The notes below the pieces were generated by a model, which saw only the letters and a program-made list of their open reading frames with translations, had not been told where the DNA came from and ran no database searches. Position numbers and translations under genes: made by a program. This document shows, in pieces, positions 9,062 through 60,660 of a DNA stretch of 64,000 bases. The first letter of the stretch is position 1; every line of letters begins with the position of its first letter. Source of the DNA: Adineta ricciae (Eukaryota; Rotifera; Eurotatoria; Adinetida; Adinetidae); NCBI GenBank assembly GCA_905250025.1, contig CAJNOJ010000093.1:62001-126000 (forward strand), given 5' to 3'.

Positions 9062-9423
9062 GTGATGAGCCGACGTAAATATTCAGAATGTATTTTTTTT
9101 GTGTTTCGATAACTGTACAGACAAAATTGAATGTATATTGACGAATAACGACAACAATGGTCAATTTTTTGTGATTATAAATTCCTGTTTGTTTTCTAAT
9201 AAATTTCACACGTCCAATTTTCATAATAGCCATGAAATTTATCCAAATGAATTATTTTCTCGTATGATCTGAGACAGAGCTCTTTCCAACCGGTGAAATT
9301 CTTTTAATTTTTATCAGAGATGTTGTATTGAACGATTTATTTTTTACTTCTAAACGTAGAAATAGGACACCTAAGAGAAAAAGAAAACATCTACGATTAT
9401 TAAATGTATGAATACAATCCAAT
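9062..9423. other. Convergent intergenic spacer SCAPER/RTTN
   Basis: About 360 bp between two convergent stop codons, presumably both 3' UTRs. No gene is seen. Its right part (from about 9240) recurs in diverged form at 26735-26965, as part of the rotatin-locus remnant described there. Confidence 0.6.
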
Positions 9424-12400
9424 CTAATCTTCTGTCAATAGTTGAATAACATTCGAGACAGCGTGATAATAAATGAGATTTTCTTTATTCCGCTGTTGAG
9501 TTTTAATGTCGTAGAGAGCCGGTAAGACATTGCTACTTCGCACAATCACTTTGCTCTAGAAATTCATCAAGCAAAATTCAATTCGAATTCATTATGAAAT
9601 CAAAATAACAACCTTTTGAGCATCAACAATCAATGCCCATAGGGCAGTTAAACCAATGTAAGCTGTATCCGATGTCTTTGAGACAACATGTGACATCACT
9701 GTTGGAATGTATTTCGCTAAATTTAAGTACCGATTGAAGTAAAAAACGTAGTAAAAAGAAGAAACTTACGTTCTGATACAATTCTTGCTTTGTGCGTTGT
9801 TGAAAATGCTAAATTTCTCAGGATGAGTAGGGCTTGTCGTTGCAAGACAGGAGATGGTGATGAATGAGCAACACGAATGATAATTGCAAATAATTCTAGA
9901 AAGTAAACTCCTTTCGTACAAACAGAGCAAGTTAAATTCGAATGAGGATTTTTTTACCAGCATTTTTCAACACACTTGCTTGGCCATCGTTGAAAAACGT
10001 GACATTAATGATAACATCCAGAAAACGACGATCATAACGATTAATATCACGTGAAACACGTTCGAAATGATCAATACATAACTGAAAAAAGTTCGATTTA
10101 TACACAATACTTCGTCCTTCGATCTCCATCGAACAATTTTGTATAATATCAAAAGCCATTTCATTTGTTTGATTTTTATTATACGAATTCGTATTATTGT
10201 TGTTATTGGTCACTGATAACAACGTTGATTTCGTCAGTAGGCGATGAACATAAGAAAGCAGATTCGATAATGGACGTTGTTGATCCGGTGTTTGCACAAC
10301 AAATGAATTCGCTGATGGTAAAACCGTACTGCATATACTAACAACACCTGCCGACAGATAATAATGGATAGAGAAAAGGAATTTCAATGGAAAATAATCG
10401 AACCTTTTCGATGTTTAGCAGTGAGAGTGGTTAAAAGGAGAAGAATAACGCTTAATAGCTGGATATCGACAACTGCCCAACACCACAATTGATGAAGAAA
10501 GGGGATCAGACCGCTCGATGCAAGAATATCCTAGATGAAATCGAATGTTAACTAGATGAGATAATCTAGGAAGACTTACTTTAGCAATGGAACATTCGAA
10601 AGCGAGATTGTTGAGAATTGATAAGACTTGAACGCATTCATCGAGCAAAACTTCATCCTGTCGAATGAGAAAAATGAATATCATGTAAAGATGCTTTGCA
10701 TTTTCTTTACTTTGCTAACACATTTATCTGATTGTAACGAGAAAAGAGTTAATTTTGTTTGAATACGTTTCAAGTGATCAATTTGAGATTCAATAAAACC
10801 CTCTAAACAATTGCAAAATGAAAATTGTTGAGCTGATCGATCAATCTATCATCTTACTCTGAATTGCTTCTTGTTTCGCAGTGGCACTGATATTTAACAA
10901 AGATTTGATCATATTGGATACTGTAAGTTTTAATGCATCGTTTGATTCCGTGTTCAATCGATTTTCATAGAGTATTAACAACTGACTGAATATTTTCATT
11001 CCATTCTTTTCTGCGGATTGATCGAAGAAGTCCTTCCAGAGCGTCTTGTCTTGATCCAATGTACATTGCGCAATGGAAAGTGATAATAATTGAAGAAGGA
11101 TAGATATCGCGATACCAATCGAACCATTGATCATAGTTTGCAGAGGAAGTGTGAGAATACCTAAAACGATGATGATGAGAAATCGATTCTATTGAATTTT
11201 ACAGAAAAAAATTTTACTGAAAAGTGTGGATGCGTGCCGAACGATGGTCTGATTGATCAAATGATGTAACGATGATGTTTGTTGCAATAAAATATGATTG
11301 ATCATATGAGCAAGATTGATTTTCGTTTGCCAGAAATTCTCCGATCGGTCACGATCAAGTTCGGGAAAATAAGCGAGAAGTGTTATTAACTGAATTAAAT
11401 TCTCAGGATTGAACATTTCATTGAGACTCTCAACTTTCGATTCGAATATTAGTCGCAGGTACTGAGCAATCTTCGTATACATGTAAAACATATTATCGAG
11501 AAATAAATGATATTCACTATGTGTAACATTCGTATTCATCTTGGATTCTAATGGGCGGACATCAAGAAAACTAAAGGAAAGATACATAGACATACTCGAA
11601 ATTAGAATGGAGACTTACGAGAGGAAAAGTTTGATTAAATCGTTTGTATCGGTGGGAATGCCTAAGAGATGTAAATTGAATAGAAATGAACATAGATTTC
11701 CGACGAATAATGGCGAAACAGGCGATGTAGTTGTGTGATTGACTCGTAGTGCATCTAAATCCAAAGCAACGAACGGATATAGATTGGATAGAACATTCGG
11801 GCCAAGTCGTTGCATGAAATCACAATCATTCAATGTAGAAATCAATTCCGGAAGAGTAATCGCCGAATTCTAAATACAACACTTTCAAGTTTCTCGATAC
11901 AAATTCCATTTTCTTTTACTTCACTTGCCAGTCTTGCTTCATCATTGATCAATGTGAAAGTGAAATTAATCAATACATTGCATACCTACATGAAAATACA
12001 TTACCAAAATGTTTTTAGAATAAGAAAAGATCCTTACTTGTTCTTTCACTAAACTACATTCATCTTCATCAAGGATAATTCCAAGTAAATGTGCTTCTTC
12101 AAGTCGATTTTGAAGAGAGAAGAATATATCTCGCCCGTATTCATCGCTAACCAAAACTGCAGTTAATGCATATGATGTCGCTCGAATTTCTGTGTCTGTT
12201 GAATGCCAAAGACTTCTTAACCAGTCAAATGTTGTTCTCGATAGTTCTAACCATTCTTGAAAAAGTGTCTAAAATAAAATCTCAATTTAGTCGACAAATA
12301 TCTCAATAAAATGTTCTCAACTATTTCTTTTCGACGATTGGACGTCGACAATGTACTCTTCAATGCTAATATGACATTTAATAGCATTTGAGATGAGGAT

Positions 12401-15400
12401 CGTATCAATGCATGAGCCATAAAACCTGACGTAGCTTCTTTCCGTCCTTCTTGAAATATCTCAATCACCTATTTCACAAAAAATCAATACAAGCTTTCTC
12501 ATGATAATCAATAAAATTACATACAGCAATTAATAGATCAGTCATCTGTAGAAGATATTCATTGTCGAAAATAACAAACCATCTCGATCTAATCAAAAGA
12601 GATTTTCGTTCTGAGAGAAATGAAAAACAAATTTGTTTACTTTGTTGTAATTTGATGTAAAACATCGATCGCGCCAGTGATTAACGTTAATTTGGAAAAT
12701 GTATGACTACTGCTTTGTTTAATGTAGTTGAGAACGTTTGTGAAGAGTTTTTCCGTGAAAAATTCTGATGTCACACTCGAATGCGAATAAAACGATGTGA
12801 GAAAGCGGAATAGTTTCTTCAATAGATCTCTACGAGAAACAAATCAAACTATGTTATGAGAGTTAAACGGATTCCATACCGTTTCGTTTGCCGCATTTCA
12901 CCGAAATCTTTGTTCGATGAAACCAATGATAAAAATGGATTTAAGAGAATGTGTTTAAACCAATCGAAGAATAGACGATCATCAGTTTTGCTCGATAAAT
13001 GCAAACCATAGGAGATTTGCTCGAGAAGTTCAAAAACTGCTTGAAGAAGTTTTTCATCTTGAGAAGATGATGGAATAATTTGGAAATATCTAAATATAAA
13101 TTCCTCTGCAAAATCAAATGATTTTCCAAGTGATGTTACTTGTCAAGTATCGCTCCTAGTTGATTAAAATCGATTAAATGAACATTATCATGTGTGACAA
13201 GTAAGAGAAGACATCGAATCGCATTTAAAGTCTCGATAACTGACTCGTGATTCAGTGATTCATTCAATAAATTCAATTGCAAACGAATTGTTCGCCGTGT
13301 ATAAGTTAATGAGAAACATTTTCGATCGTTTTCATTGAGAATCATATTGTTTTCAAATCTAAATCAACAGATTCAAATCATCTTCTTCAGAATGAAGAAA
13401 CCTACTCGACTTGATCGTCATTATTGAAAGATGTTGTGTCCATGTCTTGGTCTAATTGTTGAGCATTGGTATGCCATAGTGTATTCCAAACAAAACGAAA
13501 CTTTTGTTGAACAATCGGTTCTCGTAAAGGATCCGGACGGTTGTGTGAAGTTGTTATGATGGATGAAGTAGAAGTTTGAATTGGAACACGAATAGGAAAT
13601 TGAAAACTGAAAAGGAAAAATGAAAAACAAGGATTTGTTAATGAATTACTTTTTTGCAAGAAGATAATCAATGGAAAATGTTTGCTGTTGAAATTCTTGA
13701 TCGGATAATGATTTATTGAGTAAGGTGCGATCAAAAAGAAGTAAGATAAATGCATGAGTCAAGTTTGAAACCGTTTCAAGATCACTATGACAACAGACAG
13801 TTGCTAAATTCAGAAGTTAAAAGATAATGATTATTCTGTTTTGGATTTTACTTTTGAATAGAAGTTTGAGTACATCGTTATCAAGAGAGAATTTCTTTTG
13901 TAAATTTCGATTGTATTGAATTAACAAGCGAATAATTTTTGCACAAGATGGAATCGTCGATGTATAATCAGTCTAAATAATCCGATCAGAAACATCGAAC
14001 ACAGATTCTGACCTACCGAGCAGACAAGATCATCACGTTTAACATTTAATCGTAGTTCTTCGAAAATTCTCTCCAAACCACCATGATTGAGAAATGAAGA
14101 ATGCAATGATGGGTCGCTTAACATTGATGCCATTTGCTCTAATGCTGATTTACGAACGTTCGCATCGATTTTATTACGATCGGTGAAAATTGTATAAACA
14201 CGAAGGAAACTTTCAACCTAAACAGAGTCTCCTTGTCAAGTTTTTTCTCATATAGAAAACAAATTTACGTTAATATATTCTTTGGTGAGAATTTCGGCGT
14301 TATTAGTTGGATGAGCAGTGATGAACAAATCAAAGAGTTTCTCAGCTGGATAGAATTGATAGAAATCATCCAGACGAATGCGTGTGTTAGTTAATAAGTA
14401 ACCAACACATTGACGATAACCTGTTTTTCGAATACTAAATAAATAGTAATAGGCACCTTCAAGTCAAACTTCAATGAGCACAAACTCTTTATCTTTGGAG
14501 AATAAATATCGAAGTGATGCTTGGAAACGTTGATTCAAAGTTAATAAACATTCTTTTTCTCGCTCGGTATCAGATGATAAACTTAAGATACATTGACCCA
14601 ATGGATCAATTTTATTTCCGTAACACTAAAACGACACATATTTGTCTGCTCTTTAAAAGAACGACTTGATTTTACTTGTAATTGTGGTAAAATGACAGAG
14701 ATAATACTCATGAGATTACTCCAAAATTCGGTTGAGACGATTAATTTTGATTGAAGAAGATGAAGAAGAATCAATCGACAATAATCCGAAACCTTTTTAG
14801 TCAATCAAAATCAATTTTCATTCCGCAGCCACTTTCCACTTACTTTTGTTGCTAAATCATTCATTCCATTGACGCATAATTCAGTCAGGATTCGAATATT
14901 CAACACAAATTGCGTATCGTCATAATTCACAGCCATCGTTGAATTTTTCTTTAATTTGTTCGTTTTAACTGTTTCTTCAACCGACAAACGACTCTACAAA
15001 AGCAACATTTTCTCATTGTATCTCTCCTAACTTTCGACACCTACTGCAACTAGCATGGCAATAGAAGAATAAACCGCCGAACGTATCTCTGCCAATTCAT
15101 GTGTCATGTATTTGATCAATATATCAACTGCAAATGTTTTCTCTGCTGTATCACAATGTGAATTATTGGTCGAACTAAAAATACAACATGGTACATGAAT
15201 TTTTTAGGAAAGTAGTTTTACATTTTTGAACAAATATTGACAAATCGTTTGATTACATTGAAATTCAAATGATATGGCAAACCTAACAATGCTTCATCGG
15301 CATTTTTGATAATAGGTACAAAATTCTAAATACGGTTAGAGAATTTATCAATTCGTGCGAGCTTTTCAAACAATTTACTTGAGGTTTGTCACCATCCAGA

Positions 15401-17584
15401 GTTAATACTTGGCATGCTGCAGCAAATGAGCCGCAAACATCATTAGATTTGAGATAGACTTGATAATTATCTGTATCAATTTTTTCTGCTATTGTTAATA
15501 GTCGTTCGCGAATATGTGGGTAAGACAAATGAAAACATTCGTCCATCAGAATATAATAAACTAATTCATTGAATTCCGGTGATAATTGTCCGACAATCTA
15601 CACAAAAGGTCGAATGACACATGGGAAAATAATAGGAGACTCCCGTACCTCATCAGTCCACTCAATCGTATGTAGAAGTGTTGAGAAAACATGTAGACTA
15701 TGCGTATAGATTGTTCGACTTTGAAAAGTATAACCATTTGTGATCTGCTGTTTGACTAAGGAATGTAAACGATAAAACAACACTGAATAATATTCAAACT
15801 AGAACAAAATTATGTCAGAGATCGCCTGAAAAGATGTGACTCATACATTCATCAATCCATAGTTATGTTTCACAAATAGATCGATGATTTGACAGATAGA
15901 ATTGTTTAATTGTAAACACGTATGAAGACAATCTTTCAAAGTTAATCGACGTAACAAATCAAATGTTCCTGTAAGAATTGTGTAACAAAAATCGAGGATA
16001 TCGAATGAGGATGGTGGATCTAATTGAGGTGATTCATCGTATTTCAGCGACCTATACAAATCAGAATGATTTTCACAAATCTTTCAAAAAAGCTAATCGC
16101 ACCATTGAGATGGATGACGATAACCATTTGATGTAGCTGAATTAATTGTAGAAACAGATCGAGCACTATTCATAGTATTGTTGAAATCATCATGAATTTG
16201 TTCTCTGGGAGTGTCTAGATGGAAGAAAGATTGAGATCAATATATGAGAAGATGATGATGTGTACCGGAATTTAGATCAAGATTCGGACAGAAACAAGCG
16301 GGATCGCGCAAGATTTTAATTCGTCTTTGTAAATGATTGGCATAATCTTTTAAGCATGAAAGTGATGCTTTGATTAGATCTTCATCATTTTCGTTGATTA
16401 AGCCAAGTAAACGCTAGACGAACGATTGAGTTCAATTTCTACTAATGACATCAGACAAAGAAGTTACTTTGAGAATGAACGATCGTTGTAAGAAGAGTTC
16501 GGCAGGAAAATCATTGAGTACGACGTTGGAGAGAAAATGGCAATGACTAACAACAGTCGACGGATCATCACGCGCTAACAATGCACTATATAAAGGAAAA
16601 TGATCAGATGAAAAAGAACATTTTTCTGTGTAAGATTTTACTTTTCTAAATTTGTAAGAACAGTTCGATCGGACTGTGTTAAGTTAATCATCGGAAATAA
16701 CGTTATAAACTGGCATGTTGTTTGATTGTCATTGTCTAGACGAAAAGTCTTCGTCTGTTAGGTGAGTTGAAAAACGAATGTTTGTTTTTCTTACCTCCAA
16801 ATGTCGATAACAGGTCCGAAACCGATGGTGCGATCATTTTTAATATTCCTCGTGTTCCCGATTGATTCGATATCGACTGTGATCGGACACTCATTGAATC
16901 ATATCGACGCGAAGATAACTCTGATTGTTGTTGACTCAAGTTCAACAAAGGTAATTGAAACATTGTCGATGTTTCTGATTGCGTTTCCATGTTTGATTTC
17001 AAGAGTTGACATGATGCTAAGTAAATAGACATGATCTAATTACACGTTTGAAATGAATTTTATCTTACTGGAACTTGCTCGACTTATATTCGATACTGAT
17101 TGCGTAACAAAATGCTTTGAAAGAATATTTTCGAGAATTTCATCGACACGACGTTCAAGTTCAGGTGTTAAATCAATTCGTAGTGCATTAAAGAACTCCA
17201 CAGCACCGATCGAATGAAGATTATACGCCGCTGATTCATTCTAAATATACGAGCCGATGTATTCGATTTCTTCGATAAAGAAAAGAAGTTTTACTTTTGA
17301 AAGTTTCAAAATAATATCAAGAACTACATCGCGTTTAGGTGGTGATGGGAAATTAAACCATTCGAGTAATTTTATATAAAGATACTTATATTGCAGAATA
17401 TCTATATCAGAAACTAGTTTTAAATCAAGTTTCGCTTGAAGACTTTCCAATGCACGAAGACGAATTTCTTCTACAGGATGACCTAAGAAAGATGAAATGA
17501 AAAACATTCATTTGAAGTTCTTTTTCTTTTACCTAATTTTGATATCAGAGTAGAAAACGATTTATCAAAATCATCTTCAGGCAT
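9424..17584 (-). CDS. RTTN: Rotatin (RTTN), centriole/cilium assembly protein
   Basis: Large armadillo-like protein needed for centriole elongation and ciliary function. The N-terminus is diagnostic: ISKL, then after an intron GHPVEEIRLRALESLQAKLD and LYIKLLEWFNFPSPPKRDVV, matching the rotatin N-terminal domain (human KLGH...EIRERALKSI...LLEWFNFP). The remainder is helical, split by dozens of introns of about 50 bp on the minus strand, down to a C-terminal QLLTED and TAG at 9424-9426. I chose the ATG at 17584, 17 codons before GHPVEE. An in-frame upstream ATG at 17658 would add 25 residues and cannot be excluded. The 8.2-kb span fits the very long vertebrate protein (about 2200 aa). A serine-rich insert lies near 16.8-17.0 kb. 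A decayed duplicate of both ends of this locus lies at 26.7-27.2 kb. Confidence 0.85.
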
Positions 17585-18155
17585 GATAATTTCAATCGAG
17601 GGCACTGAGCTTTGTACTAAATCGATGACAATTCTTTTATTGGTCTGCCATATTCCATCGACTTAATCGTTCTCTTGACAACGACCACATTCGACTATCG
17701 ACATCTATCGACAATAATCTGAGCTTATCCTTCTTTCTTTCAAACGTGTCTTACTGGAAATGTTGATAGAAAGTCGAAATTATCTGCCAATATTTAAACG
17801 TTTATCATTAACAATCCGATTGTTATTAAGCAAATATGCTCGTTTCTTTTACAGACTATTGATTATTCTGATCACAATCTAAACTCTCTTTTAAACGCCT
17901 AGTACTAGTTGAGAGGCCTTTCTCTTATTACACATCCTTTCTCGCCCTCCTCCTATGTCTTTCTCAAAATGAATTGTAAATTCGGCAAACGAAGATTATT
18001 TATTTACATGAACAAGAGAAATAAATGTCGTGTATATATACGAAAAATGTGTGGAACAAAAATGCGTAGTGCGACGAATGAAAACAGTAAAACTAAAAAC
18101 AGACTAAAGTCATTCAGAGTTAAACGAGCCGAAAGTCATGTATCTCCCTGAGACC

Positions 18156-20715
18156 TTAGACGAAGTCTTGCCAACGTTTGGGAACATCAGTATTTATCAC
18201 CGATATATTATAATATTCGACTAACTTTTCAAAGGCGTCAAAAACTGCTGCTCGAAAAACAATAATAGCGATCGGCTGTATAAGTGTGAAATGAAGAGTT
18301 TCAACTGTACGAGAATAAAAACAATCACTTAAGTTAGAGACCAATTTCCATCCCTGTGAAAGAAAATAGGCAAATAATTCATAAAACATGGCGAATTAAA
18401 CAAGAGTTATCCGAACTGACAGTAAGGAGTTCTCGGAGAAGAACGGTGTGAATCAACTATGAAATGAATGGTAAAATTTGACTAAATATAATAGTATAGG
18501 AAGAAACGCAACTTTGTGGATCAAGAGTTTTGTTCAATGTAGAAGAACATATACATTCGTTACAAGAGAAACCACATAAAAAATATAGGAATATCTATAA
18601 CAGTAGATCCACGCGAACGAAGGATTGATTCACCAGCTTGATGAATATAGTTTTTTAAAGTTGTATTGACACAAGTGTTGATGAAAAGTGCATAGATATG
18701 ACGACATGTTGGTGTGGTGCAATATGTTTTCCCCTTCTAAATAGAATTAACCGATCATGTCCGACTAAAAATGATCGGAGAAATCCAGTAAACAACAACA
18801 TACAATATAAGATCAGATTGTAAACAATCGTGTATTGATACAATGGATCTCGCTATCATCCAGATACATTGAGTACCTCATTCAGCTCTTATATAATTAT
18901 TAATACATGCCCTGTACGGCACAAAAGAGGATTATAAATATTCTTGTGCTTGACATAGGCTATTAATCAAGCCATCGTACTCTTATCGTTATTTGAGTAT
19001 GTAAATATTGTTCTTAACTTTGAAAGAACTCACTAAGAATATTTTTTCTCGTATTACGTATCTACTTTCTCCCTCAATCTTCGTTGTCTGTTATTGTTAT
19101 TGCCAAAAAATGGGGAAAAAAAGTTTGAAATAATAGCAATACTGGTACAAATACAATACACATGCAGATAAAAATCAAGCATGATTTAACTAACAACACG
19201 CACAATAGTAACATTTTCAAAAACAAAACTGGTGTGTAGAAAAGATCAGAAAAATGTAGGAATGAGTTGTTCTTATTGAGACAAGTGAAAAAAAAGAAAG
19301 GATCCTAGCTATCAGTAATTATTGTGCTCTATTTGTCGAATTTTTCGTTTACTAATGCCAATGAATAATAGTGACTGAATGTTGTGAATGGATGTTTCTC
19401 ATGGCCTGTTATATCTGAAGTATTAATAAATGTTTAGAATCAGTGTTCCTTTTGCTTACATCTTTGGACAAATGAATTGAAAGTAGTTCGACTTGAATAA
19501 AGTAGAAAAGGACTAAACGAAAAGAATGTGTATCAAAGTGACTTTAATTCGAAGCGAATTAGAGTGGGATATATGTTCGAGTTTTTATCTAAAAAAACCT
19601 TCTAATTCTTTCAGAAAAGGGTCAGCGAATCTAACAGATAAGCGCTACTTGTTGTTCAACTAGGTGTTTCATCAGATAAAACAAATCTAATTGAATCCAG
19701 TTGAGTAAGGTTGAACCTCGTCTGCTACATAAATCGTCCTCCCCATGTGAAATTTTTTTAGTATAAACGTGTTTGAAACGCAGAACATAAACGCACCCAG
19801 ACGCGTTGTTCACATGCATTCAGCTACGTTTATGATTTTTGCCCAAAAAAGCATCCTATTCTCACAGCTTCAGTCTGTGTCACCAAGTTTTCCAATTAGA
19901 AAGCCTGTCAATCCTTCTCATGAATTGGGACCATAACAATTGGCAGAAGGTAATGCCGAATGGTCAGACTAACAGTTTCGACATAAAAAAAGATAAGATC
20001 TAACAGAATAAATTAAGTCGGTTTTTAAAAGAAATCATTATTGAAAACGGATTTTCCAGAGGAGAAAAGGCGAGACTTCAGACTTCAACTTATTCACCCG
20101 TACTTCACTTTACTTCAGATATCAGCTGAAGTACACCAAGTCTTGGTTTTCTCTTCTTGATCAACACACTCGTAATCGTAAGACTCTCTCTCTCTCCCTT
20201 TCACCTCTATTCATTCAATCTCATGTAAACGTATTCTGAATAGTTAACAGCAACAGCTGTTCCAATCTTACCTGCTTCGACAGCTGGATCAACTGTTGCT
20301 GTTTCGTATCCAAAAGACTTTGTAAGTGGCATGCATCATACATCTGCATAAATAACAGGATCAATGAAATAATAGAAAGATATTTGTCTTCAATCCATCG
20401 AAAATCAATATACAATTAAGACATACACAACGCATGAAGCTAGTGATCAATCATATCATATAGAATAGATGTCTGTCGTTTTTGTCAATCAAATAGATTA
20501 GGTTATTGATGAACAAAAGGATTGGATAAAAATTGTCTCGAATCGAGTGGATTAGTTTATCGACAATATTTCAAAATAAAACTGAAATGAGAGAGTGCCA
20601 TTGTATGAATTTTTACACAGTGAGCATGTGCCAGTAAGACAATTCTTTGTGTATCAGCAAATTCATTCATACTTAGTCGATGACTGTGGTGATTATATGC
20701 CTGCTTTTTGTCCAT
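18156..20715 (-). CDS. Possible multi-exon gene of unknown family
   Basis: Not recognised. Three minus-strand blocks look like exons. Block A (20715-20617) is 33 codons, starts at an ATG just after an AG acceptor, and ends TGT|GTAAAA. Block B (20343-20272) is exactly 24 codons (MYDACHLQSLLDTKQQQLIQ...) between TTTATGCAG and GCAG|GTAAGA. Block C (about 18365-18156) starts after a pyrimidine-rich TTTCTTTCACAG, reads GWKLVSNLSDCFYSRTVETL and continues to PKRWQDFV and a stop. All three joins are phase 0. The gap between B and C is 1.9 kb, far longer than other introns here, so exons may be missing or B and C may belong to different or broken genes. A MITE-like element and a repeat copy lie in that gap. 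The 18.4-20.27 kb stretch otherwise shows no convincing gene. Confidence 0.3.
19420..19653. repeat. Repeat A, copy 1
   Basis: About 230 bp alignable by eye with 25602-25832 in the same orientation. Shared blocks include TCTTTGGACAAAT, AATTGAAAGTA, AAATTCGAAG and GCTACTTGT, with scattered substitutions and small indels. No coding potential is seen. The two copies lie on either side of the ART-TPR gene. Confidence 0.6.
20059..20158. mobile_element. MITE-like inverted-repeat element, copy 1
   Basis: About 100 bp whose left end (GGAGAAAAGGCGAGACTTCA) is an imperfect inverted repeat of its right end (complement of the right end begins AGAGAAAACCAAGACTTGG). The middle also contains self-complementary stretches around CTTCAG/CTGAAG. 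A shorter relative lies at 24113-24181. No transposase is present, so it would be non-autonomous. Confidence 0.5.
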
Positions 20716-21392
20716 TTCTGCTAAAACTCTATTAAGAGATCTTAAATGCAGCGGCCAAAATCAACTTCAGACTTATATCTCTTCGAAGTAGACCTTTTTC
20801 AACATTAATATTACTTCCCGATCAGATTTAACAACAAACGATACATTTACGAAAGCAAAAGCTCATTTTATCACATTTGGTTCAAGACGTAAGAAAAGCT
20901 GAACGAACGTTCATGTTTCCCGATTACAACAACATCTCATCATTCGTTTTTTGAACGGATACGGACACACTTAGATCCACTAGGACGAATAGACTTTTAG
21001 CATGTCGAGCAAATATAAGATTTAACTTCTCTATGATACTTTTTTGCAGACAGAAGGGCGTTATGCAAATAGAAGCTGTTTCGATTTATTTCAGTTAAAT
21101 TACGTCTTTTAGTAAACACTTTCTTTACACATTTTCAATATTTGCATAGCAACAAAAGTATTCTCTACAGGCGTGTTTTTATCGTTCTTCCGTTGTTCTG
21201 CATAAAAAAAGATAACTCTGTGAATGCAGTAGAAAGAAGAAAAAACACAAATTTACCAACGAAGCTACTCTTTTTATTGTGCTTTAACCGACAGAGCATC
21301 AAATCAGAGTGAGTGAAGGCAACAACAACTAGGAGAACAACAATCAGAACTTTCAGCACAGTAGACAATCGGCGATCGGTCGATATTAAAAA

Positions 21393-23756
21393 ATGCAAGA
21401 CGTCGTTATGATCTGGCTCGACAATCATATTGATCATAATAATGCTGATTGCCAGTTAACAATTGCACAACTTGAACACATTACTGACAATGTCACTACA
21501 TTCACGGATAATGATGAATGTGTCGAATATATACTCAATTGTAATGACCATCAAGTCTATCTAATCGTTTCTGGTGCACTTGGACAATATCTTGTTCGTT
21601 GTATCCACGACATTCCTCTATTACACTCGATTTTCATCTTTTGTCAAAACAAATCATACCATGAACAATGGGCTAAACATTGGAACAAGATCAAAGATGT
21701 TTTCACTGATATAACATCACTCTGCCAAGCCATTCAGAACACACTTCCCCAAGATGAGCCCAATGTCACACCAATCAGTTTTGTACCATCTGGCAAAAGA
21801 CTGGATCTGCTCAATCCATCTTTCATGTACACACAACTCTTCAAAGAGATCTTGTTAACCATCGAATTCGAAGACAAACACATCGAAGAGTTTGTCAAGC
21901 ATCATCCTGGACTAATCACTCTCAATGGTACACATTCTACTGATGTTAAGCAATTAGTACGTGATTATCGTGCAAAGAAACCCATCTGGTGGTACACAAG
22001 AGATAATTCGTTGCATTCCATGCTCAACGATGCGCTACGAATCATGGATGGTGATGTTTTAGTTCGAATGGGGTTCTTCGTCACTGATCTTCATCGCAAC
22101 ATTGAACAGTTACACAAAGAACAGTTTGTTAACACAACTTGGAGTTCTCTTGTGTTTACAGTATATCGCGGACAAGGCCTATCTCACACAGATTTTGAAG
22201 AACTAAGAAACACAAAAGGCGGATTGATGTCATTCAACAGCTTCTTCTCTACCAGTACGAAACGTGACATCTCGTCTCTCTACGCGGAAAGTAACGCAAA
22301 CAATCCCAAGTTAGTAGGAATTCTCTTCACAATACAGGTCGATCCTTCTCAGTCAACAACACCGTTTGCCTTTGTTGGGAATCATGGTCGTTTCTTACAA
22401 GAAAGCGAACTCTTGTTTTCAATGCACACCGTGTTTCGCATACATGACATCAAAGTCATTGACACTGATCGACCACTCTATGAAGTGAATATCTCGTTGA
22501 CTCTTGATTCTGACGAAGAGTTACGCACACTGACTGCTCATATTCGTCGCGAGAGCCATCTCGATGGTAAAGGTTGGACGCCATTAGGCCAACTGCTGAT
22601 TCAGCTAGGTCAACATGACACAGCTGAGCCGATTTACACTGCTTTACTCAACCAAACATCAGATGACAGTGATGCGGGACTGATCTATCATCAACTTGGT
22701 TGTATCCGATACGAACAAGGCTTGTTTGAGGAAGCCGTAACATTATATGCCAAATCACGTGTGCTTCTTGAGAAATCACTTCCTGCAAACCATCCTAGTA
22801 TAGCCACATCTTTTGGTAGCATCGGCTCGGTGTATGACAGTATGGGTGATTATCGAAAAGCACTCGAATACTATGAGAAAACTCTTTCGATTCAACAACA
22901 ATCACTTCCTGCAAACCATCCTAGCATAGCCATATCCTACAACAACATAGGCTCGGTGTATCAGAATATGGGTGATTATCCAAAAGCACTCGAATACCAT
23001 GAGAAAGCGCTTTCGATTCGACAACAATCACTTCCTGCAAACCATCCTAGCATAGCCACATCTTTTGGTAACATCGGCTCGGTGTATGACAGTATGGGTG
23101 ATTATCCAAAAGCACTCGAATACTATGAGAAAACTCTTTTGATTGAACAACAATCACTTCCTGCAAACCATCCTAGCATAGCCACATCTTTTGGTAACAT
23201 CGGCTCGGTGTATGACAGTATGGGTGATTATCGAAAAGCACTCGAATACTATGAGAAAACTCTTTCGATTGAACAACAATCACTTCCTGCAAACCATCCT
23301 AGCATAGCCACATCCCACAACAACATAGGCATGGTGTATAAGAATATGGGTGATTATCGAAAAGCACTCGAATACTATGAGAAAACTCTTTCGATTCAAC
23401 AACAATCACTTCCTGCAAACCATCCTAGTATAGCCACATCCTACAACAACATAGGCATGGTGTATAAGAATATGGGTGATTATCGAAAAGCACTCGAATA
23501 CTATGAGAAAACTCTTTCGATTCAACAACAATCACTCCCTGCAAACCATCCTAGCATAGCCACGTCCTACAACAACACAGGCATGGTGTATTATAATATG
23601 GGTGATTATCCAAAAGCTCACTTCTATTGTGAACGCGCTGTTCAAATTGCCAAGTGTTCAATGTTACCAAATAATCCGCACCTTTTAACGTACGCAAGAA
23701 ACCTGGAATGTGTGAGAAATGGACTGCAGCACTCTTCTTTTCGTGCTATAAAATAA
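21393..23756 (+). CDS. NAD:arginine ADP-ribosyltransferase with kinesin-light-chain-like TPR array
   Basis: Intronless 787-codon gene. Residues about 1-110 form an N-terminal region of unknown role. A mono-ADP-ribosyltransferase domain (about 190-370) has the arginine-specific R-S-ExE pattern: VYRGQG (Arg at about 259), FNSFFSTST (about 285-293) and the ESE of FLQESELLF (Glu at about 337 and 339). It would transfer ADP-ribose from NAD+ to a protein. After a linker with one or two diverged TPRs come seven 42-residue TPR units (about 462-755), of the kinesin-light-chain type, presumably for protein binding. Catalytic residues are all present, so activity is plausible. No signal peptide is evident, which suggests a cytosolic protein. 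The architecture is typical of a family expanded in bdelloid rotifers. The lack of introns contrasts with neighbouring genes, and the gene sits in a repeat-rich island. Cellular target is unknown. Confidence 0.85.
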   Translation: MQDVVMIWLDNHIDHNNADCQLTIAQLEHITDNVTTFTDNDECVEYILNCNDHQVYLIVSGALGQYLVRCIHDIPLLHSIFIFCQNKSYHEQWAKHWNKIKDVFTDITSLCQAIQNTLPQDEPNVTPISFVPSGKRLDLLNPSFMYTQLFKEILLTIEFEDKHIEEFVKHHPGLITLNGTHSTDVKQLVRDYRAKKPIWWYTRDNSLHSMLNDALRIMDGDVLVRMGFFVTDLHRNIEQLHKEQFVNTTWSSLVFTVYRGQGLSHTDFEELRNTKGGLMSFNSFFSTSTKRDISSLYAESNANNPKLVGILFTIQVDPSQSTTPFAFVGNHGRFLQESELLFSMHTVFRIHDIKVIDTDRPLYEVNISLTLDSDEELRTLTAHIRRESHLDGKGWTPLGQLLIQLGQHDTAEPIYTALLNQTSDDSDAGLIYHQLGCIRYEQGLFEEAVTLYAKSRVLLEKSLPANHPSIATSFGSIGSVYDSMGDYRKALEYYEKTLSIQQQSLPANHPSIAISYNNIGSVYQNMGDYPKALEYHEKALSIRQQSLPANHPSIATSFGNIGSVYDSMGDYPKALEYYEKTLLIEQQSLPANHPSIATSFGNIGSVYDSMGDYRKALEYYEKTLSIEQQSLPANHPSIATSHNNIGMVYKNMGDYRKALEYYEKTLSIQQQSLPANHPSIATSYNNIGMVYKNMGDYRKALEYYEKTLSIQQQSLPANHPSIATSYNNTGMVYYNMGDYPKAHFYCERAVQIAKCSMLPNNPHLLTYARNLECVRNGLQHSSFRAIK
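22776..23657 (+). repeat. Seven tandem 126-bp units encoding TPRs
   Basis: Seven head-to-tail in-frame units of exactly 126 bp, each beginning TCACTTCCTGCAAACCATCC (one has TCACTCCCT) and encoding SLPANHPSIATS...MGDYxKALEYYEKTLSIxQQ. Units 1-6 are nearly identical in DNA, with differences clustered in codons such as SFGN/SYNN, DSMGDY/KNMGDY and EQQ/QQQ. The last unit diverges in its second half. The synonymous near-identity points to recent unequal exchange or conversion. Confidence 0.9.
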
Positions 23757-24112
23757 ATTCATCTCTTTTTTCAAAATCATATGTAGTGATAGAACTTTTT
23801 AGAGAAGCATTCTATCGACGTCTTTCCATTAGAATGCGCAAAGAACGTTTCTATGAGCGAGGTGGCGATAAGTTGACACATCGAATGTCGTTAGATAGTG
23901 AACATTGCTAATATGATTGTTGTTAGGAAGGGTAAATCTTACGGTTGGGGTCGGCGACGCTTGACAAATCCTATCCGAAATTAATGTGGAAGCCATAGAG
24001 GCCTTTCTATAGAGACGGATTTGTTCAGGTTTTTATAGCTACTCTTGAGAATGAAAGAAATGAGCTTTTGGAAAGGTGAGGTCGGTATACTTGCCTATGC
24101 GAATTCTACTGA

Positions 24113-24181
24113 AGGGAGGAAAAGCGAGACTTCACATTTCAACTACTGATTGAAGTAGAAGAAGTCTTGTTTTCTCCTTAG
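24113..24181. mobile_element. MITE-like inverted-repeat element, copy 2
   Basis: About 68-bp near-palindrome: left GGAGGAAAAGCGAGACTTCA, right end complement AAGGAGAAAACAAGACTTCT. It shares both termini with the 20059-20158 element but has a shorter centre. No coding content. Confidence 0.5.
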
Positions 24182-24404
24182 GATTGTCAATGACTCGATC
24201 CTGGATGGAAAAGGGTTTCTCATTTCGGATGCGTTTGAATACATCAACTATGGAAAACACGCATAAGCGTGTTAGGACGCGTCTATTTTGCGTTTCAGAG
24301 GTGCGTGGCTTGTAATGTTCTACTTTTAAAAAAATGATTTAATATTATCGAAAAGAACGATCACATTGCTCAATCATGAGCAGTTATAAAACATTTCATT
24401 GTTT

Positions 24405-25350
24405 CCTTTTCTGAAAGAAAGGGTTATATAGCGTGATAAATACAATCATAAAAATGCATATATCCAGGTCGAACAATCCCATACTCGGATCCAATATAGG
24501 ATTTTATCAGATCCTACAGGAATTCGACGGATCCGATGAAATCCTGGTGACGGAATCGCATTGGATTCCGACCGTCTCGGATCCGAAACATGAATTTCCT
24601 GGATTTTCTAAGGGTCATCATAGAACATAGCTAAAAAGATCGCTCATAAAATTTGCAACAGCCGACGGGATTTTTCTAGTCGGATTCCAATGCAATTCCG
24701 TTTCCAGGAATCCGATCGGATTTTGTGAGATGGTCGGATCCGGTGAGATCCGATCGGATCCAGCATCGGATTTGTTGACCTGGGCACTTAGTTTGCCTGT
24801 TTGCATAAACAAATCAGATTGCAGCATATTATAACTCAATGAAATTTATCTATAGCCATCAAAGATTGACCACTGATGAGGTAATCGAGGTCGAGGATCT
24901 CGAATCCGATATTAGTTTTTCGAAAATCCAATTACCTGATTACTAATTAAAGAATGAAATATTTTTTGGTTGTAGAGTAAGGGTTGACCGAAGGATAATC
25001 TGGATCCAAGACCTCGAATCCGTTGTTAGTTTTTCAATAAAAAAGTTCTGTGCTGTTTTTTTAGACAAAGGACAATTTTTTGCAAGGAAGCTTTTCTTAG
25101 ACGATATTGTTTGAAACAGCAATATGTAGAACAAAACGAAATAGCTGATTAACGTCGGATTGTTGGATATTCATACACATCAACACATTGATAACATCAC
25201 AATTATACAAACAGTTATATTACGCAAACATTATCTTATGCTAACCATTCAAAATAATACTTCTCCTGACAAATGTTGTTTTAGACAGAAGTTAATCATC
25301 GATTCGCAAGAACATATCCGGCAACTTTTTAAGGTATCCAGTAATGAAGA
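24405..25350 (-). repeat. Repeat R, copy 1, split by a nested element
   Basis: Read on the minus strand, this matches 59820-60660 and, in part, 61960-62350. Shared landmarks in order are GTTGCCGGATATGTTCTTG, TTTTGTTCTACATAT, CCTTTGTC, two tandem copies of a block containing AACTxAxxxCGGATTCG...CAACCCTTACTC, and finally ATAACCCTTTCTTTCAGAAA. The 24463-24783 inverted-repeat element interrupts it. The ORF on + at 25160-25465 is inside this repeat and is not convincing as a gene. Confidence 0.6.
24463..24783. mobile_element. Inverted-repeat element rich in CGGATCCG motifs
   Basis: About 320 bp with terminal inverted repeats: left CCAGGTCGAACAATCCC, right-end complement CCCAGGTCAACAAATCCG. The interior is dense in GGATCC, CGGAT and ATCCG motifs on both arms, so the two halves could fold back over much of their length. 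It encodes no transposase and sits inside repeat R copy 1, so it inserted later. Confidence 0.6.
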
Positions 25351-25601
25351 GATGAACGGAACCTTTAGCAGAGGGCGGTATACCTATGTGAAGTTCCTAC
25401 GTTTTCGATTATGGATTGATTTTCCAGAGCGGACTTCTTTTCGGATAACATCTTCATCTGAATAAAAGGAAAAAAAGGAAAATACATGGAAACGGCTAGC
25501 CGAAGTGGCCGACCAATGAACAACTAGGCGTTTATTTGCGTTACTTACAGAAGATAAAATAAGTGAAAGTAAATTGATTTTTTATTTTGGGTAGTCTGAC
25601 G

Positions 25602-25832
25602 AGAGTCGATGAATAAATTTTTAGAAACATTATTCGTTTTGTTTACGTCTTTGGACAAATAAATTGAAAGTAATCTGAGATGAATGAAGCAGAAAATGAA
25701 AGAATGAGCATAAAAGTGACCTAAATTCGAAGCCGATTAGATTGAGACCTGAGCGAGAGCTTTTATCTACTAGTTTTCTGATACTTTCAGATAAAGGCCA
25801 GCGAATCCAACGGATGAACGCTACTTGTATTC
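25602..25832. repeat. Repeat A, copy 2
   Basis: Direct-orientation relative of 19420-19653, sharing GTCTTTGGACAAAT, AATTGAAAGTAAT, AAATTCGAAGC, TTTTATCTA and GCTACTTGT. It is non-coding as far as I can see. With copy 1 it forms the outer pair of repeats around the ART-TPR gene. Confidence 0.6.
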
Positions 25833-26204
25833 ATCACTTCTCTTTTTTCGTTATGTCATGTTCCGCCGATATCATGTATCGTCTATTTTTTTATTTATCT
25901 TCGCATACATTGTCTCTTGCATCCACCAGAGTGTCTAAAGTCTTGTTTGCTCCCTTAAAAATAATCCCGTCCTCAAGGGGTTAAAATTGAGCGGCTTTCT
26001 GAAATGCACGCATCATTATTTTGACAACAAGAACCTTGCAGAAATTTTATTGATTTATTCCATCATGAAATTTAACAATAGAAGAAAATCTTATAATCTA
26101 TAATCAAGATACTTGACAAAGAATGTTAGGCTTCATCAAATGGTCATGCACTGTCGATCTACAAAAACCACGAAGCGATATTTTTCGACGGATCAATTGT
26201 TAAT
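25833..26204. other. Spacer without recognisable gene
   Basis: AT-rich sequence between repeat A copy 2 and the kinase remnant. The short open frame on + near 25742-25984 has no recognisable motif. Confidence 0.4.
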
Positions 26205-26690
26205 CAATCTTTGACAAGATCTTTTGCTATTTGAGCTACATTCATCTAGGCTGGTGTATCATAGAATAATTTTGATTGTACTGTATCTTCAAAAAGTCGC
26301 TCAGCTGTTCGATGAGTTGTGATTGAAATGAGTGGCACCTCTTCACGAAACATCGTACATAAAACCACACCCAGTGGCCACAGATTCCATGATTCGTCAT
26401 GACCAGATATTTTTGTAGTTACTGTTGAAGGTACAATGACAACTGTGGATGTACTTACTGGGAGAAGAAGATGGATGACTAAGAATAATTCAATGTTGTT
26501 GCAGCGCGAAAAATTTCAGGTGCAATGTATCTTTACAGAAGAAAAATAAACAAGGAGAAATGTCTTCGGTGTTCTTACCGAAACGTTTCACGTAGTATTG
26601 TCATTTGTTTGTGTTTTGTATGCTTCTTCGTAGAAACAATATCAATGGCTCTGATATCTGCATGGGGTAGTGATGTGGAGAACAGTAAAT
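26205..26690 (-). pseudogene. Degraded protein-kinase fragment
   Basis: Minus-strand translation shows kinase landmarks in correct order but broken frames. There is an activation-segment end RYIAPEIFRAATTLNYS followed by an in-frame stop (about 26480-26530). Then, after a possible intron, comes GHDESWNLWPLGVVLCTMF (about 26345-26405), which corresponds to the conserved D-x-W-x-x-G helix of kinases. FEDTVQSKLFYDTPA follows, then a stop and further stops. An upstream piece reads HADIRAIDIV (about 26660). No start, glycine loop or complete catalytic loop is visible. The family within the kinases cannot be assigned; calling it kinase-derived is moderately secure, calling it non-functional more so. 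Confidence 0.5.
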
Positions 26691-26734
26691 AAATATAAAT
26701 AAATACGTCAACTTATATTCTTTGGAAAGTATCT

Positions 26735-27165
26735 CAAAATGAATTATTTTTCCATAGTATCCAAGACAGAATACCTTTCCAAATGGTGAGGTGCTGTTGA
26801 TTTTTATTAGAGATGCTGCATTGAACGATTTATTTGTTACTTATAAATGTAGAAATATGACACCTATGAGGAAAAGAAAATATCTACGATCATTAAATGT
26901 ATGAACACAATCCGATCCGATCCAATCTTCTGTCAGTAGTTAAATATCATACGAAACAGCGTGCAAAGGACAAGCCGTTCTCTTGACAACGGCCACCCTC
27001 AACTAGCGACATCTGTTAGAAGCAAAGCAAAAAATTTCATTTATATCACATTCAAATGTATTCATACTGAAAATATTCGTTAAAAAGGAAAAAATCTTCA
27101 AGAATATCTAGAGGTTACCAATGACAATCTGATTGGTATTGAACAGATGTGTTTGTTTCTTCCTC
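26735..27165 (-). pseudogene. Remnant of a second rotatin locus with the body deleted
   Basis: The left part (about 26735-26965) aligns with 9243-9470, the 3' flank and last codons of RTTN. The right part (about 26974-27020, then a patch near 27115-27140) aligns with 17665-17716 and about 17800-17830, the 5' flank of RTTN. The two ends of the gene therefore meet directly, with all but about 20 codons gone. The surviving codons are decayed: the terminal stop is TGG instead of TAG, and a CAA five codons before LLTED is TAA. This follows from direct comparison within the window. It has no coding capacity. Confidence 0.75.
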
Positions 27166-27276: not shown

Positions 27277-27768
27277 ATGGCTAGTAAAACAACTTCATCA
27301 ACTGGAAAGAAATCAGCATTGACAGCTGAGGAACAACAGAAGATTGTTTCGGGTTTTCAAGCATTACGTGATGAACAAACTCAATTAGTACAAAAGACTC
27401 AAGATTTAGAAATGGATTTAAAAGAACACGATCTCGTTTTGTCAACCTTATCAACAATAACGGATAAACAGCGTCGTTGTTATCGAATGATCGGCGGTGT
27501 TCTTATCGAACACACTGTCGGAGAAGTTGTTCCAGCCTTACAAGCGAATCGTGAACAAATTCACAATGTTATTGAAAGTTTTAAACAAAAAACAGAAGAC
27601 AAAGCCAAGGAATTAGCCAATTATAAACAAAAGCATGATATTCACTTTTCGTATGAACGACCAAATCAACAACAGCAAGGATCGAAACCTGCTGCGAATA
27701 GTTCTGACTCGGGAACAACAAAGAAAGAACCTCAAGATTCCGGTGTTTTGGTTGACAAGGATAACTAA
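27277..27768 (+). CDS. PFDN2: Prefoldin subunit 2
   Basis: A beta-type subunit of the hexameric prefoldin chaperone, which hands nascent actin and tubulin to the CCT chaperonin in the cytosol. It is a single 163-codon exon. Recognisable family features are TAEEQQKIVSGFQALRDEQ at the start of the N-terminal coiled coil, the beta-hairpin core (CYRMIGGVLIEHTVGEVVP) and the C-terminal coil (NREQIHNVIESFKQKTEDK). A low-complexity, Ser/Thr/Lys-rich tail follows from about residue 130. Length is close to the usual 150-155 aa. The stop is 157 bp from the WWOX start on the same strand, so the two may share a promoter. Confidence 0.92.
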   Translation: MASKTTSSTGKKSALTAEEQQKIVSGFQALRDEQTQLVQKTQDLEMDLKEHDLVLSTLSTITDKQRRCYRMIGGVLIEHTVGEVVPALQANREQIHNVIESFKQKTEDKAKELANYKQKHDIHFSYERPNQQQQGSKPAANSSDSGTTKKEPQDSGVLVDKDN

Positions 27769-27884
27769 AAGCGCTCGTGAAAATGAAAAGACACAGTCTT
27801 GTTTTCTACGAAATGAACACTTTACTCTTCTTCTTTGTTATCGTTGTGTGATGTTTTCTTTTAGTACGGATCAAAATAAGAACG

Positions 27885-27898
27885 TTTGTTTTTTTTAG
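27885..27898 (+). promoter_or_regulatory. 3' splice acceptor 27 bp before the WWOX start codon
   Basis: GTTTGTTTTTTTTAG ending at 27898 lies between the PFDN2 stop and the WWOX ATG. Only 130 bp separate it from the PFDN2 stop. That suits an intercistronic trans-splice site better than a promoter plus 5' UTR intron, though the sequence alone cannot decide. Confidence 0.45.
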
Positions 27899-27925
27899 AT
27901 CGAAGTTTTGTATTTTGAAAAACGA

Positions 27926-29530
27926 ATGACTGATATATCAGATAATGATGAGCTTCCTACCGGCTGGCAAATCGGACAGACAAGTGATGGACGCGTGTTT
28001 TATATAAATCATCAGACGCAAAAAACTCAATGGGAACATCCGATCACAAAGAAAATCAAAGTTGTTCCAAAAGGTTTGTCTAACACTGACAAATTATCGT
28101 GCAGCTATTCTTCATTTAGAATCCGGTGAACAGAAAACGAAGATTGTCTTCGTCGAGTATGATAAACAGTTATGAATTATTCAATAGATGAATTGCTGCT
28201 GTTTAGTGAACATCAGAAACGATCAGCGACGGTAGATTCACATCAAACATCAACGAAAGATTTGGACCCGTCATTTGGGCACCAGTCGAATGCATTACAG
28301 ATCCTTTATGGAACAGATCTAACGAATAAGACTGCAGTTGTTACTGGTGCTAATAGCGGCATAGGTAAAATATTTTTCTGGATGAAAATGAGAATATCTG
28401 TATGTTTCAATAGGCTTTGAAATCGCACGTTCATTAGCAAAGCATGGTTGTCAAGTGATACTAGCATGCCGAAATTTGACAAAAGGCGAGGCAGCTTGCT
28501 CAAAAATACGGACAGAAAAGGTAAGACGAGTGCTTCAAATCGCATCTCATTGTCTCGCCTTTTGTTGATATTTCAGGAGGATGCAAATATTAGTTGTCGT
28601 AGACTTGACTTGTGTTCATTACGTGGTGTGAAACAATTCGTCGAACAATATCGACAGGAGGCATTGTACACGCCTTGACCGAATCTTTTTCATCGAAACA
28701 ATCTGTGCTATTTCTAGACCATTGCATCTCCTTATTCTGAATGCTGGTGTTCTAAATACAACCTTTAAACTAACAGAAGATGGTTACGAAGAAATGTTTC
28801 AAGTGAATTACTTGGCCCAAACGTATCTGGCCGCTGGATTACTGTCATCTATGTTAGTGACAAAAAGCGATCAACCACCGCGTATAATCGCAATCAGCTG
28901 TGAATCCCACCGAATAGAGTAATAATACTCAAATGAATTTGACTTTCAAATAATGTCATTTCTCTCTTTTCAGAAGTCCAGGGATTTCAACTATAAATGG
29001 AATCACTACCGATCGGCTGAGTCCACGCTCACCGCATCATTTTGATCATCTGCTATCCTATGGACAATCCAAACTTTGTTTAATTATGTTCATCGCTGAA
29101 TTTCGTCGAAATTATCCACGTTAGTCGTTCAGTGTGAACTTCAAATTCGACATTTATTCTATATTTTAGAAATTTACTCAGTGGCTTGCCATCCGGGCAA
29201 TGCAATCAATTCCAATTTAACACGTCATTCTTATTTTTACCAATTTCTTGTTTTACTTACTCGTCCATTTTCCAAATCACTCGTAGGATTTTGACACGAA
29301 CCGCACCAATTAATTTTCCATTTCTCATTTAGCAACAAGCAGCTGCAACGCCAATCTATTGTGCTATAACGAAACGAGTTTTGAAAGAGCCGACCATTTA
29401 TTACAATAACTGCGATGAAGGTTGTCCATCTTCATTTGTTTATAATCATAAATTGACAGAAGATTTATGGATTCAAACTCAATCATTGATTGAATTAGCT
29501 TTCAGAAAACAGCCATTAACAGTTGTTTAA
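27926..29530 (+). CDS. WWOX: WW domain-containing oxidoreductase (WWOX)
   Basis: WW domains plus a short-chain dehydrogenase/reductase domain; WWOX is a signalling adaptor with a presumed oxidoreductase fold. WW1 is canonical (LPTGWQIGQTSDGRVFYINH, then TQWEHP). WW2 is degenerate, with neither tryptophan; it is read only if the 50-bp intron 28157-28206 is removed, giving IVFVDEHQKRSATVD. The SDR domain has TGANSGIG for NAD(P) binding, ACRNL, ILNAG, a catalytic Ser in ISCESHR and YGQSK in the Tyr-x3-Lys position. Later exons give ACHPGNAINSNL, TRPFSKSLQQAAATPIYCA and the end KQPLTVV. All introns are about 50 bp and phase-consistent. I chose the ATG at 27926 rather than 27908, since MTDISDNDELPTGW places WW1 as in relatives. 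Confidence 0.9.
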
Positions 29531-58667: not shown

Positions 58668-58860
58668 CTATTTTTCAGAAGAAATGCTAGATTGGGCGAA
58701 AGATTTGCTACACTTTGATATGAGGACGAGGGTGAAATCGTTGCAGAACTTTTTGCCCAAACGAATAAATAAAATCTATTTTATTTTGATAGTGCAGTTA
58801 TTCGATGATTTGCTTCAGATTTTCACTCATATTCATTTGATACCCCAAAAGTTTCTCAGA

Positions 58861-58914
58861 CTAATGCCTAGTCGTTCGTCGGCCTCGCTCTGCTCGGCCA
58901 CTCGCGACTACTCG
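58861..58914 (+). repeat. GC-rich block D, copy 1
   Basis: GCCTAGTCGTTCGTCGGCCT followed by CGGCCACTCGCGACTA. It shares this and about 50 bp of upstream AT-rich sequence with copy 4. Confidence 0.6.
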
Positions 58915-59308
58915 TCAGTACATACTATATTTTTCTCATATCTTCCTAGAAAAAGTGTCCGATTCATACTGAGTTCGTCTGCAATCGAAGTTATGAAAAG
59001 TTTTCATAACTGTGTGATCCATCGTAGATATTTGACTGTTTTCTTAAATTAAGGGAGCTGGTAATTCACATTGCTTTTTCTCAAACCTCGAAAAGACAGG
59101 AATTATGTTCTTTCAAAAAATGATCGACACTGCCCTAGACTCTTATAAGACTCAACTTTTAAATATCTCTCAAGGGTGAAGGGGTGGGTGATGAACTCAA
59201 ACGTTTTCTCTCCGTTTAGTTATCATCACGTGTCTCATTGCACAGTGATTATTCCTGATGATATTGTCTCACCTTTTCTCTGTCTGTGACTATCTTGTGT
59301 CTCCTCTG

Positions 59309-59332
59309 GATCTCTCTCTCTCTCTCTCTCTC
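59309..59332 (+). repeat. (TC)n microsatellite
   Basis: Uninterrupted TC dinucleotides over about 24 bp. Confidence 0.8.
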
Positions 59333-59633
59333 ACTGTTCAGGGTTTATCTCATTGTTGCGAGCAATATCATGTGAATCTCTTTGTCTGTCTGTTACTGCA
59401 TGTCGTCGTCTATAAAAGGCAACGTTTTGATTTGTAATAGGCAATAGCTGCGTGATCTTCACTTGTCCATCTGCTCGACGGACTCTCTAGCCTCCACATT
59501 TTCCGGGCGCTCATTCTTTGTGTTAAGGATTGTTCAATCAATTGTTTTGACTTCAAGACTCTGTCGAGGAAATGAGTTGTCGGTCAAGTGAACTAGACGC
59601 TTCGCTTATTTAATCTTCTCTAAGCTTCTTAAA

Positions 59634-59680
59634 TAAACGCCTAGTCGGTCGGCCACTCACGGCTAACCGTTCCCATGCAT
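59634..59680 (+). repeat. GC-rich block D, copy 2
   Basis: AAACGCCTAGTCGGTCGGCC followed by ACTCACGGCTAACCGTTCCC. Shorter than copies 1 and 4; the central CCTCC stretch is missing. Confidence 0.6.
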
Positions 59681-59819
59681 TCTCATTTTACTATCTTAAC
59701 TTCATTTGAACGAAGATGTTATCCGGAATGAGGTCATTTTAGAAAATCAATTCGTAATCGAAAGCTTATAAACTGTACATAGGTATATCATTCTCTGCAA
59801 ACAGATTTCATTCTTTTCT

Positions 59820-60660
59820 TCACCACGAAGCACTTTAAAGAGCTGCCAGATATGTTCTTGGAGATCAACGATTAAGTTCTACATCCAAAAAATCTTGAAA
59901 CTTATATAAAAATCACGAAAATCTGTTCTTTAAAATATTATACTTCAAATCGAGGACTGGTCGCTAGTCGGCCTTCCTCTGGTCGGTCACTCGCTGCTAG
60001 CCGTTACATGTACATTTTCGCTCTTTCATCTAATCTAGAATCACTTTCGAAACTAATCAATCCATTTCCTTTTAGTCCTTCTTAATAAGTCGCCACCTTT
60101 GTTTTATTATGGTTATCGAAAACAACACTTGACAAAGGAAACATTATTTTGACCAACTTGCACCAGATGATATTTCTACAATATAGCTGGCAGTCTATAT
60201 AAGTGTGCGATCTCAATAATATGCTGATGACTATGGGGATCCAGCAATCGGGCGCAAGTCAGCTATAAGATTTTGTTCTACATATGACCGCTTAAAACAC
60301 TATCGGCTACAAAAAGTGATCCTGTGTCGGAAAAAAGGAGACAGAAAGCTTTTATGAAAAAATTAACCTCGGATTTGAGTCCCCCGACCTAGATTACCGT
60401 TCGGTCAATCCTTACTGCGTACATTAATAATTCATCCCTAATTAGCCTGAAGATAACTAATAGTTAATAATTAGTTAAAACTTATCCCAGATTCCAGTTC
60501 TTCGACCTCGATTATTTATCTACTAGTCGGTTTCTAGCTGATAAGGGTAAATTTCGATGATTTAAGAAATTCTTATTTCTGATTGGTTTGGACCAACAAA
60601 CTTATACTGATTTTTAACGCGGCTATAACCCTTTCTTTCAGAAAGGGAATAACTATGAAA
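59820..60660 (+). repeat. Repeat R, copy 2
   Basis: Plus-strand relative of the minus-strand copy at 24405-25350. Shared in order: GCTGCCAGATATGTTCTTGG, then (after an interruption containing block D copy 3) GATTTTGTTCTACATATG, GTGATCCTGTGTC, two tandem blocks with CGGATTTGAGTCCCCCGACC and CGACCTCGATTA, and the terminal CTATAACCCTTTCTTTCAG. It lacks the nested element of copy 1. Confidence 0.6.
59960..60013 (+). repeat. GC-rich block D, copy 3
   Basis: GCTAGTCGGCCTTCCTCTGG, then TCGGTCACTCGCTGCTAGCC. It interrupts repeat R copy 2. Confidence 0.55.

Follow-up and report, generated by a model that had tools for sequence, protein, structure and literature searches.

Gene relics that follow the loss of a duplicate, as in fractionation or among unprocessed pseudogenes, form where the spare copy of a gene is removed mostly by deletion, so that its ends stay recognisable. 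In the bdelloid rotifer Adineta ricciae, a further copy of RTTN, the rotatin gene, resembles these relics, in that it appears to have been removed mostly by deletion and its ends can still be recognised. Different from the usual relic, the scar retains both outer ends together with the junction between them, and the contig that carries it also offers a full copy for comparison; moreover, different from the relics of fractionation, the lost copy looks like a local duplicate and not like a homoeolog. Our literature search on gene relics and fractionation returned plant work only, and among the papers found on bdelloid rotifers and rotatin none concerned the rotatin gene, as far as titles and the opening lines of abstracts indicate.

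Internal deletions in bdelloid DNA are described for copies of the Hebe retrotransposon of Adineta vaga, a subtelomeric element (PMC2861651): they measure 12 to 200 bp, and most of them carry 5 to 14 bp of microhomology. The RTTN scar, too, keeps the outer ends of the unit around missing internal sequence, again in a bdelloid, but its deletion lies in a host-gene region, spans 8.2 kb, carries a 12-bp filler and shows no common word of 5 bp or more near the junction. The same report states that over 1 Mb of bdelloid DNA, collinear and rich in genes, was free of end-joining footprints. The present deletion, large, joined with filler and located among genes, would count as such a footprint, and one example leaves that picture unchanged. 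The scar is a clear case of ordinary duplicate loss and illustrates a known process well: a bdelloid shedding a redundant gene, with the junction kept and an intact partner available for comparison.

The ends of RTTN beside PFDN2

We analysed a stretch of 64,000 nucleotides (hereafter the window, positions 62001 to 126000 of contig C93) from an assembly of 130.46 Mb in 1,033 contigs. Its G+C content is 36.0%, similar to the 35.6% given for A. ricciae in PMC5916493. The intact gene, copy 1, occupies 9424 to 17584 on the minus strand, with the stop codon at 9424 to 9426 and the inferred ATG at 17582 to 17584, and is bordered by a 3' flank (9234 to 9423, the 3' untranslated side) and a 5' flank (17585 to 17848). 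An RTTN_N Pfam match (E 1e-15) falls in the open reading frame at 17241 to 17507, and the predicted spliced model comprises 34 exons and 1,906 amino acids with no internal stop. The gene models place the first exon at 17533 to 17584; both of them ended early within the last intron, and the last exon, which ends in ...NLIYYHAVSNVIQLLTED before the stop, was read by hand.

Just upstream of PFDN2, a prefoldin subunit gene on the plus strand (27277 to 27768; Pfam Prefoldin_2, E 4.1e-23; the number 2 follows the naming of the preliminary description), a segment of about 430 bases (26725 to 27161) is a collinear, same-strand copy of both outer ends of RTTN. In the comparison of the window with itself, 9242 to 9465 matched 26734 to 26963 (81%, E 1.2e-56) and 17668 to 17848 matched 26976 to 27161 (69%, E 3.0e-7), each in plus-strand orientation; local alignment extended the first match to 9234 to 9465 versus 26725 to 26963. 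Counting aligned bases only, 193/232 are identical in the 3' half of the scar (83%, 7 gap columns) and 130/174 in the 5' half (75%, 19 gap columns), and the genome-wide BLAST E values of the two halves are 2.7e-54 and 4.4e-5, respectively. The alignment score of the 3' flank, 286, was reached by none of 1,004 comparisons with other window segments (maximum 45), and that of the 5' flank, 122, by none of 1,000 (maximum 41). Chance resemblance is thereby excluded, and the claim that both ends of the gene stand side by side upstream of PFDN2, in the same order and on the same strand, is borne out, with the limits of the two matches shifted slightly from those first given.

The homology runs into the flanks of the gene, covering 190 bp on the 3' side and 181 bp on the 5' side. 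In particular, 26725 to 26921 is the retained 3' flank (counterpart 9234 to 9423, with 157/190 aligned bases identical), 26922 to 26963 holds the last 13 codons and the stop in decayed form (36/42 bases identical), 26964 to 26975 is the filler, and 26976 to 27161, the retained 5' flank, stops 115 bp short of the start codon of PFDN2; the three retained parts read on the minus strand.

A genome-wide DNA search with the scar, of a type that skips simple repeats, returned two matches, the scar itself and the 3' flank of RTTN. This low number rejects a dispersed repeat or a transposon as an explanation of the scar, and the many genomic copies that would have pointed that way did not appear. A query of 8,609 bp that covers RTTN and its flanks gave three matches in the genome, namely itself and the two halves of the scar, and no further RTTN copy was found by DNA search of the genome; the same type of search did detect a relative of SCAPER, the left neighbour of RTTN, at 69% identity.

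Decayed codons and the junction

The C-terminal frame of the scar reads HAVSYDI*LLTEDW, compared with HAVSNVIQLLTED* in intact RTTN. Two of the changes are disabling, CAA to TAA and the stop TAG to TGG, and the translations of both copies agree with the decay described from the sequence at first reading. The homology of the flanks and these disabling changes fit the remnant of an unprocessed, that is, duplication-derived, pseudogene. The retained codons are those of the 3' end. The deletion reaches past the inferred start codon to a right breakpoint 84 bp upstream of it (17668 on copy 1); it follows that no 5' coding sequence remains in the scar, and the preliminary description of retained codons holds for the 3' end only. 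Sorted by coordinate modulo 3, mismatches are evenly distributed, at 12, 13 and 14 in the 3' part, where only 42 bp are coding, and at 18, 12 and 14 in the 5' part. On this absence of a codon pattern we rejected hidden coding sequence in the conserved 3' flank, and a known RNA gene was rejected as well, with no Rfam match at the gathering threshold between 9000 and 27500.

At the junction (...CAGCGTG, 12 bp of filler, CGTTCTC...) the filler replaces 8,202 bp as measured on copy 1, in agreement with the loss of about 8 kb first estimated. The junction is visible as had been claimed, but it spans 26964 to 26975 rather than 26966 to 26974. The sequences within 15 bp of either breakpoint have no word of 5 to 8 bp in common, and three of 4 bp; the identical stretch at both breakpoints that characterises microhomology-mediated end joining is absent. 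The join may resemble end joining with filler, a tentative reading of the present sequence, and the original junction may have altered after such divergence. As a template for the filler we considered a 10-bp match at 25066, inside a dispersed repeat, and set it aside as one that could be due to chance.

Origin and age of the lost copy

Local duplication of RTTN, followed by the loss of 8.2 kb from copy 2 and the decay of its ends, is in our judgement the probable history. The segment duplicated, locally and in direct orientation, would have comprised RTTN, some 190 bp of its 3' flank and no less than 264 bp on the 5' side of the start codon, within an ancestral order SCAPER - RTTN - PFDN2. 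Copy 1 would retain the SCAPER side and the gene, and copy 2, on the PFDN2 side, would have lost the 8.2 kb, apparently through a single deletion that end joining sealed with the 12-bp filler, its outer ends having decayed since. A foreign block, made of a kinase fragment and a repeat with a tetratricopeptide (TPR) gene, may have entered at the junction between the copies or come with the formation of that junction. We infer the ancestral gene order, the succession of events, the single deletion and the end joining. With SCAPER next to copy 1 and PFDN2 next to copy 2, the locus is bounded on the outside as a tandem copy would be; on the inside, the DNA to the left of 26725 and that to the right of 17848 are unrelated. 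The supposed duplication followed by a large deletion is thus supported, as it explains the collinear ends, and extra genomic copies are absent. As for the duplication of the whole locus, only the gene and its short flanks are seen duplicated, with 8.9 kb of unrelated DNA now between the copies. Clean tandem copies would touch, and an insertion or a compound event is therefore needed, which counts against the local duplication. It is possible to hypothesize, although we hold it to be unlikely, that a chromosome broken, for instance, by desiccation was mended in a single compound event which included the RTTN duplication, the capture of the kinase fragment and the 8.2-kb deletion; the locus would then be a patchwork left by break repair and preserved in a bdelloid gene region.

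The divergence of the two halves of the scar bears on the age of the duplicate. The Jukes-Cantor distance is 0.19 for the 3' half (95% interval 0.13 to 0.25) and 0.31 for the 5' half (0.22 to 0.41), and the halves differ slightly (Fisher p 0.046, 193/39 versus 130/44). Conversion, unequal constraint or alignment error could lie behind this difference, which counts against duplication followed by deletion. In PMC5916493, the mean Ks of A. ricciae is 0.14 for homologs and 1.27 for ohnologs; the divergence of the scar falls between these averages, nearer that of the homologs.

The main rival to a local duplicate is an assembly artefact, in which two haplotypes, one with RTTN deleted, were joined end to end in the contig. 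Our searches returned no second allele of RTTN, PFDN2 (a single match in the genome by protein search) or the scar, and alleles may have been collapsed or purged from the assembly; furthermore, the published homolog Ks lies within the interval of the 3' half. Nevertheless, the window contains no N, the 5' half is 25% diverged with its 19 gap columns, and the outer borders are foreign, with the kinase fragment standing left of the scar in place of the SCAPER-RTTN spacer and no PFDN2 standing right of copy 1, and we consider the artefact improbable.

PMC6264785 describes bdelloids as degenerate tetraploids with two to four copies of most loci, and the scar had been attributed to the loss of one such copy. 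SCAPER (Pfam SCAPER_N, E 7.4e-20) has a second copy, with 69% DNA identity, on contig C64. The homology between C93 and C64 ends after SCAPER (C64:356096), restarts at position 40771 of the window (C64:360643) and runs in pieces to about 58 kb, so that 32 kb on C93 (9062 to 40770 of the window) correspond to 4.5 kb on C64 (356161 to 360642). Collinearity and divergence suggest that C64 is presumably the homoeolog. The SCAPER copies are identical at 570/999 third codon positions (Jukes-Cantor 0.64) and, in introns, at 529/768 aligned bases with 224 gap columns. Across 60 kb of C64, the proteins of RTTN, PFDN2 and the WWOX-like gene beyond it gave no tblastn match at E values up to 1, and the 1.5-kb spacer that follows SCAPER there gave three blastn matches to the window, all at chance level (best E 0.30). 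The proposed synteny comparison thus recovered SCAPER on C64, but neither RTTN nor PFDN2 in the 60 kb. The C64 interval carries instead a G protein-coupled receptor frame (Pfam 7tm_1, E 3.5e-11), XPA (XPA_C, E 1e-24) and a putative RPP21-like frame with no Pfam match, none of which has a tblastn match in the window at E 0.01. Gene content therefore differs between C93 and C64 in the collinear interval, and RTTN appears to be gone from C64 with no visible remains.

Since the divergence of the scar is lower than that of the SCAPER third positions, the duplicate is probably younger than the split of C93 and C64. Together with the absence of RTTN and PFDN2 matches on C64, this lower divergence makes the scar best read as a later local duplicate: a copy was lost, as proposed, but probably not the homoeologous one, and the scar sits on C93 with the full copy instead of at the syntenic position of a homoeologous loss. 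That the scar is nonetheless the homoeologous RTTN, moved here by translocation or exchange between subgenomes, would fit with C64 being collinear on both sides and lacking RTTN; we hold it to be very unlikely, as the scar, at 83% and 75%, is less diverged than SCAPER is between the two contigs, and collinearity persists on both sides of the interval. Least likely of all, copy 2 never had the body of RTTN, a compound break repair having placed only a kinase fragment and two copied ends, as the truncated pieces all round the scar, the nearness of the kinase fragment and the filler might suggest, but two pieces would then be needed in the right order, orientation and register, where a deletion needs one event.

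DNA between the two copies

The DNA from 17849 to 26724 is unrelated to RTTN. Its right part holds the C-terminal exons of a decayed kinase gene fragment of the MSK/RPS6KA5 type (25981 to 26690, minus strand), with several stops in frame and 74% DNA identity to positions 104471 to 105223 of contig C264; the fragment starts at about 26690, close to an exon boundary, and 34 bp separate it from the left edge of the scar. For the first kinase domain of the C264 relative, the closest solved structure is RPS6KA5 (MSK1; 1vzo, E 3.4e-137). The fragment is split by a dispersed repeat (19422 to 25988, plus strand) with a predicted TPR gene (21393 to 23911, Pfam TPR), and its 3' end lies beyond this repeat, at 19214 to 19401 on the minus strand (69% DNA identity to C264). 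The two kinase segments are separated by 473 bp on C264, and the insertion of the repeat therefore also seems to have replaced sequence. Further pieces of the MSK/RPS6KA5-type gene occur at C264:90889-91185 and C245:83619-83944, and the kinase pieces on C264, in two places, and C245 share 86 to 97% identity with one another. Judging from these matches, fragments of this gene seem to have been copied around the genome.

A 9.7-kb query that included the dispersed repeat had at least 113 matches in the genome, itself counted, and relatives of the repeat on other contigs show about 70 to 90% identity. Its TPR gene has a 788-amino-acid frame (21390 to 23756) with 126-bp internal repeats at 22774 to 23617, and the first part of the gene has a weak match to an ADP-ribosyltransferase profile (21.0 bits, below the Pfam cut-off of 23.4). 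Left of the kinase 3' end, the 1.36 kb from 17849 to 19213 contain a 77-amino-acid frame on the minus strand (18156 to 18389); a DNA search of the genome with this stretch brought up no second copy, and the frame has none by protein and no Pfam match. Inverted fragments like parts of 24394 to 25567 form another cluster of the same repeat family in the window, at 58821 to 62234.

A search with a bdelloid spliced-leader 23-mer gave 44 matches, 41 with one mismatch, three with two and none exact, compared with none for the reversed control, which supports the bdelloid identity of this DNA claimed at first reading. At C8:239425-253841 and C77:397485-406428, TPR repeat units are flanked by inverted spliced-leader pairs about 150 bp apart. 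On the other side of the scar, a gene with WW and short-chain-dehydrogenase domains (WWOX-like) lies about 160 bp past the PFDN2 stop on the same strand (27277 to 28098 with PFDN2 included). A T-rich stretch ending in AG precedes both genes, and the pair is possibly a trans-spliced operon.
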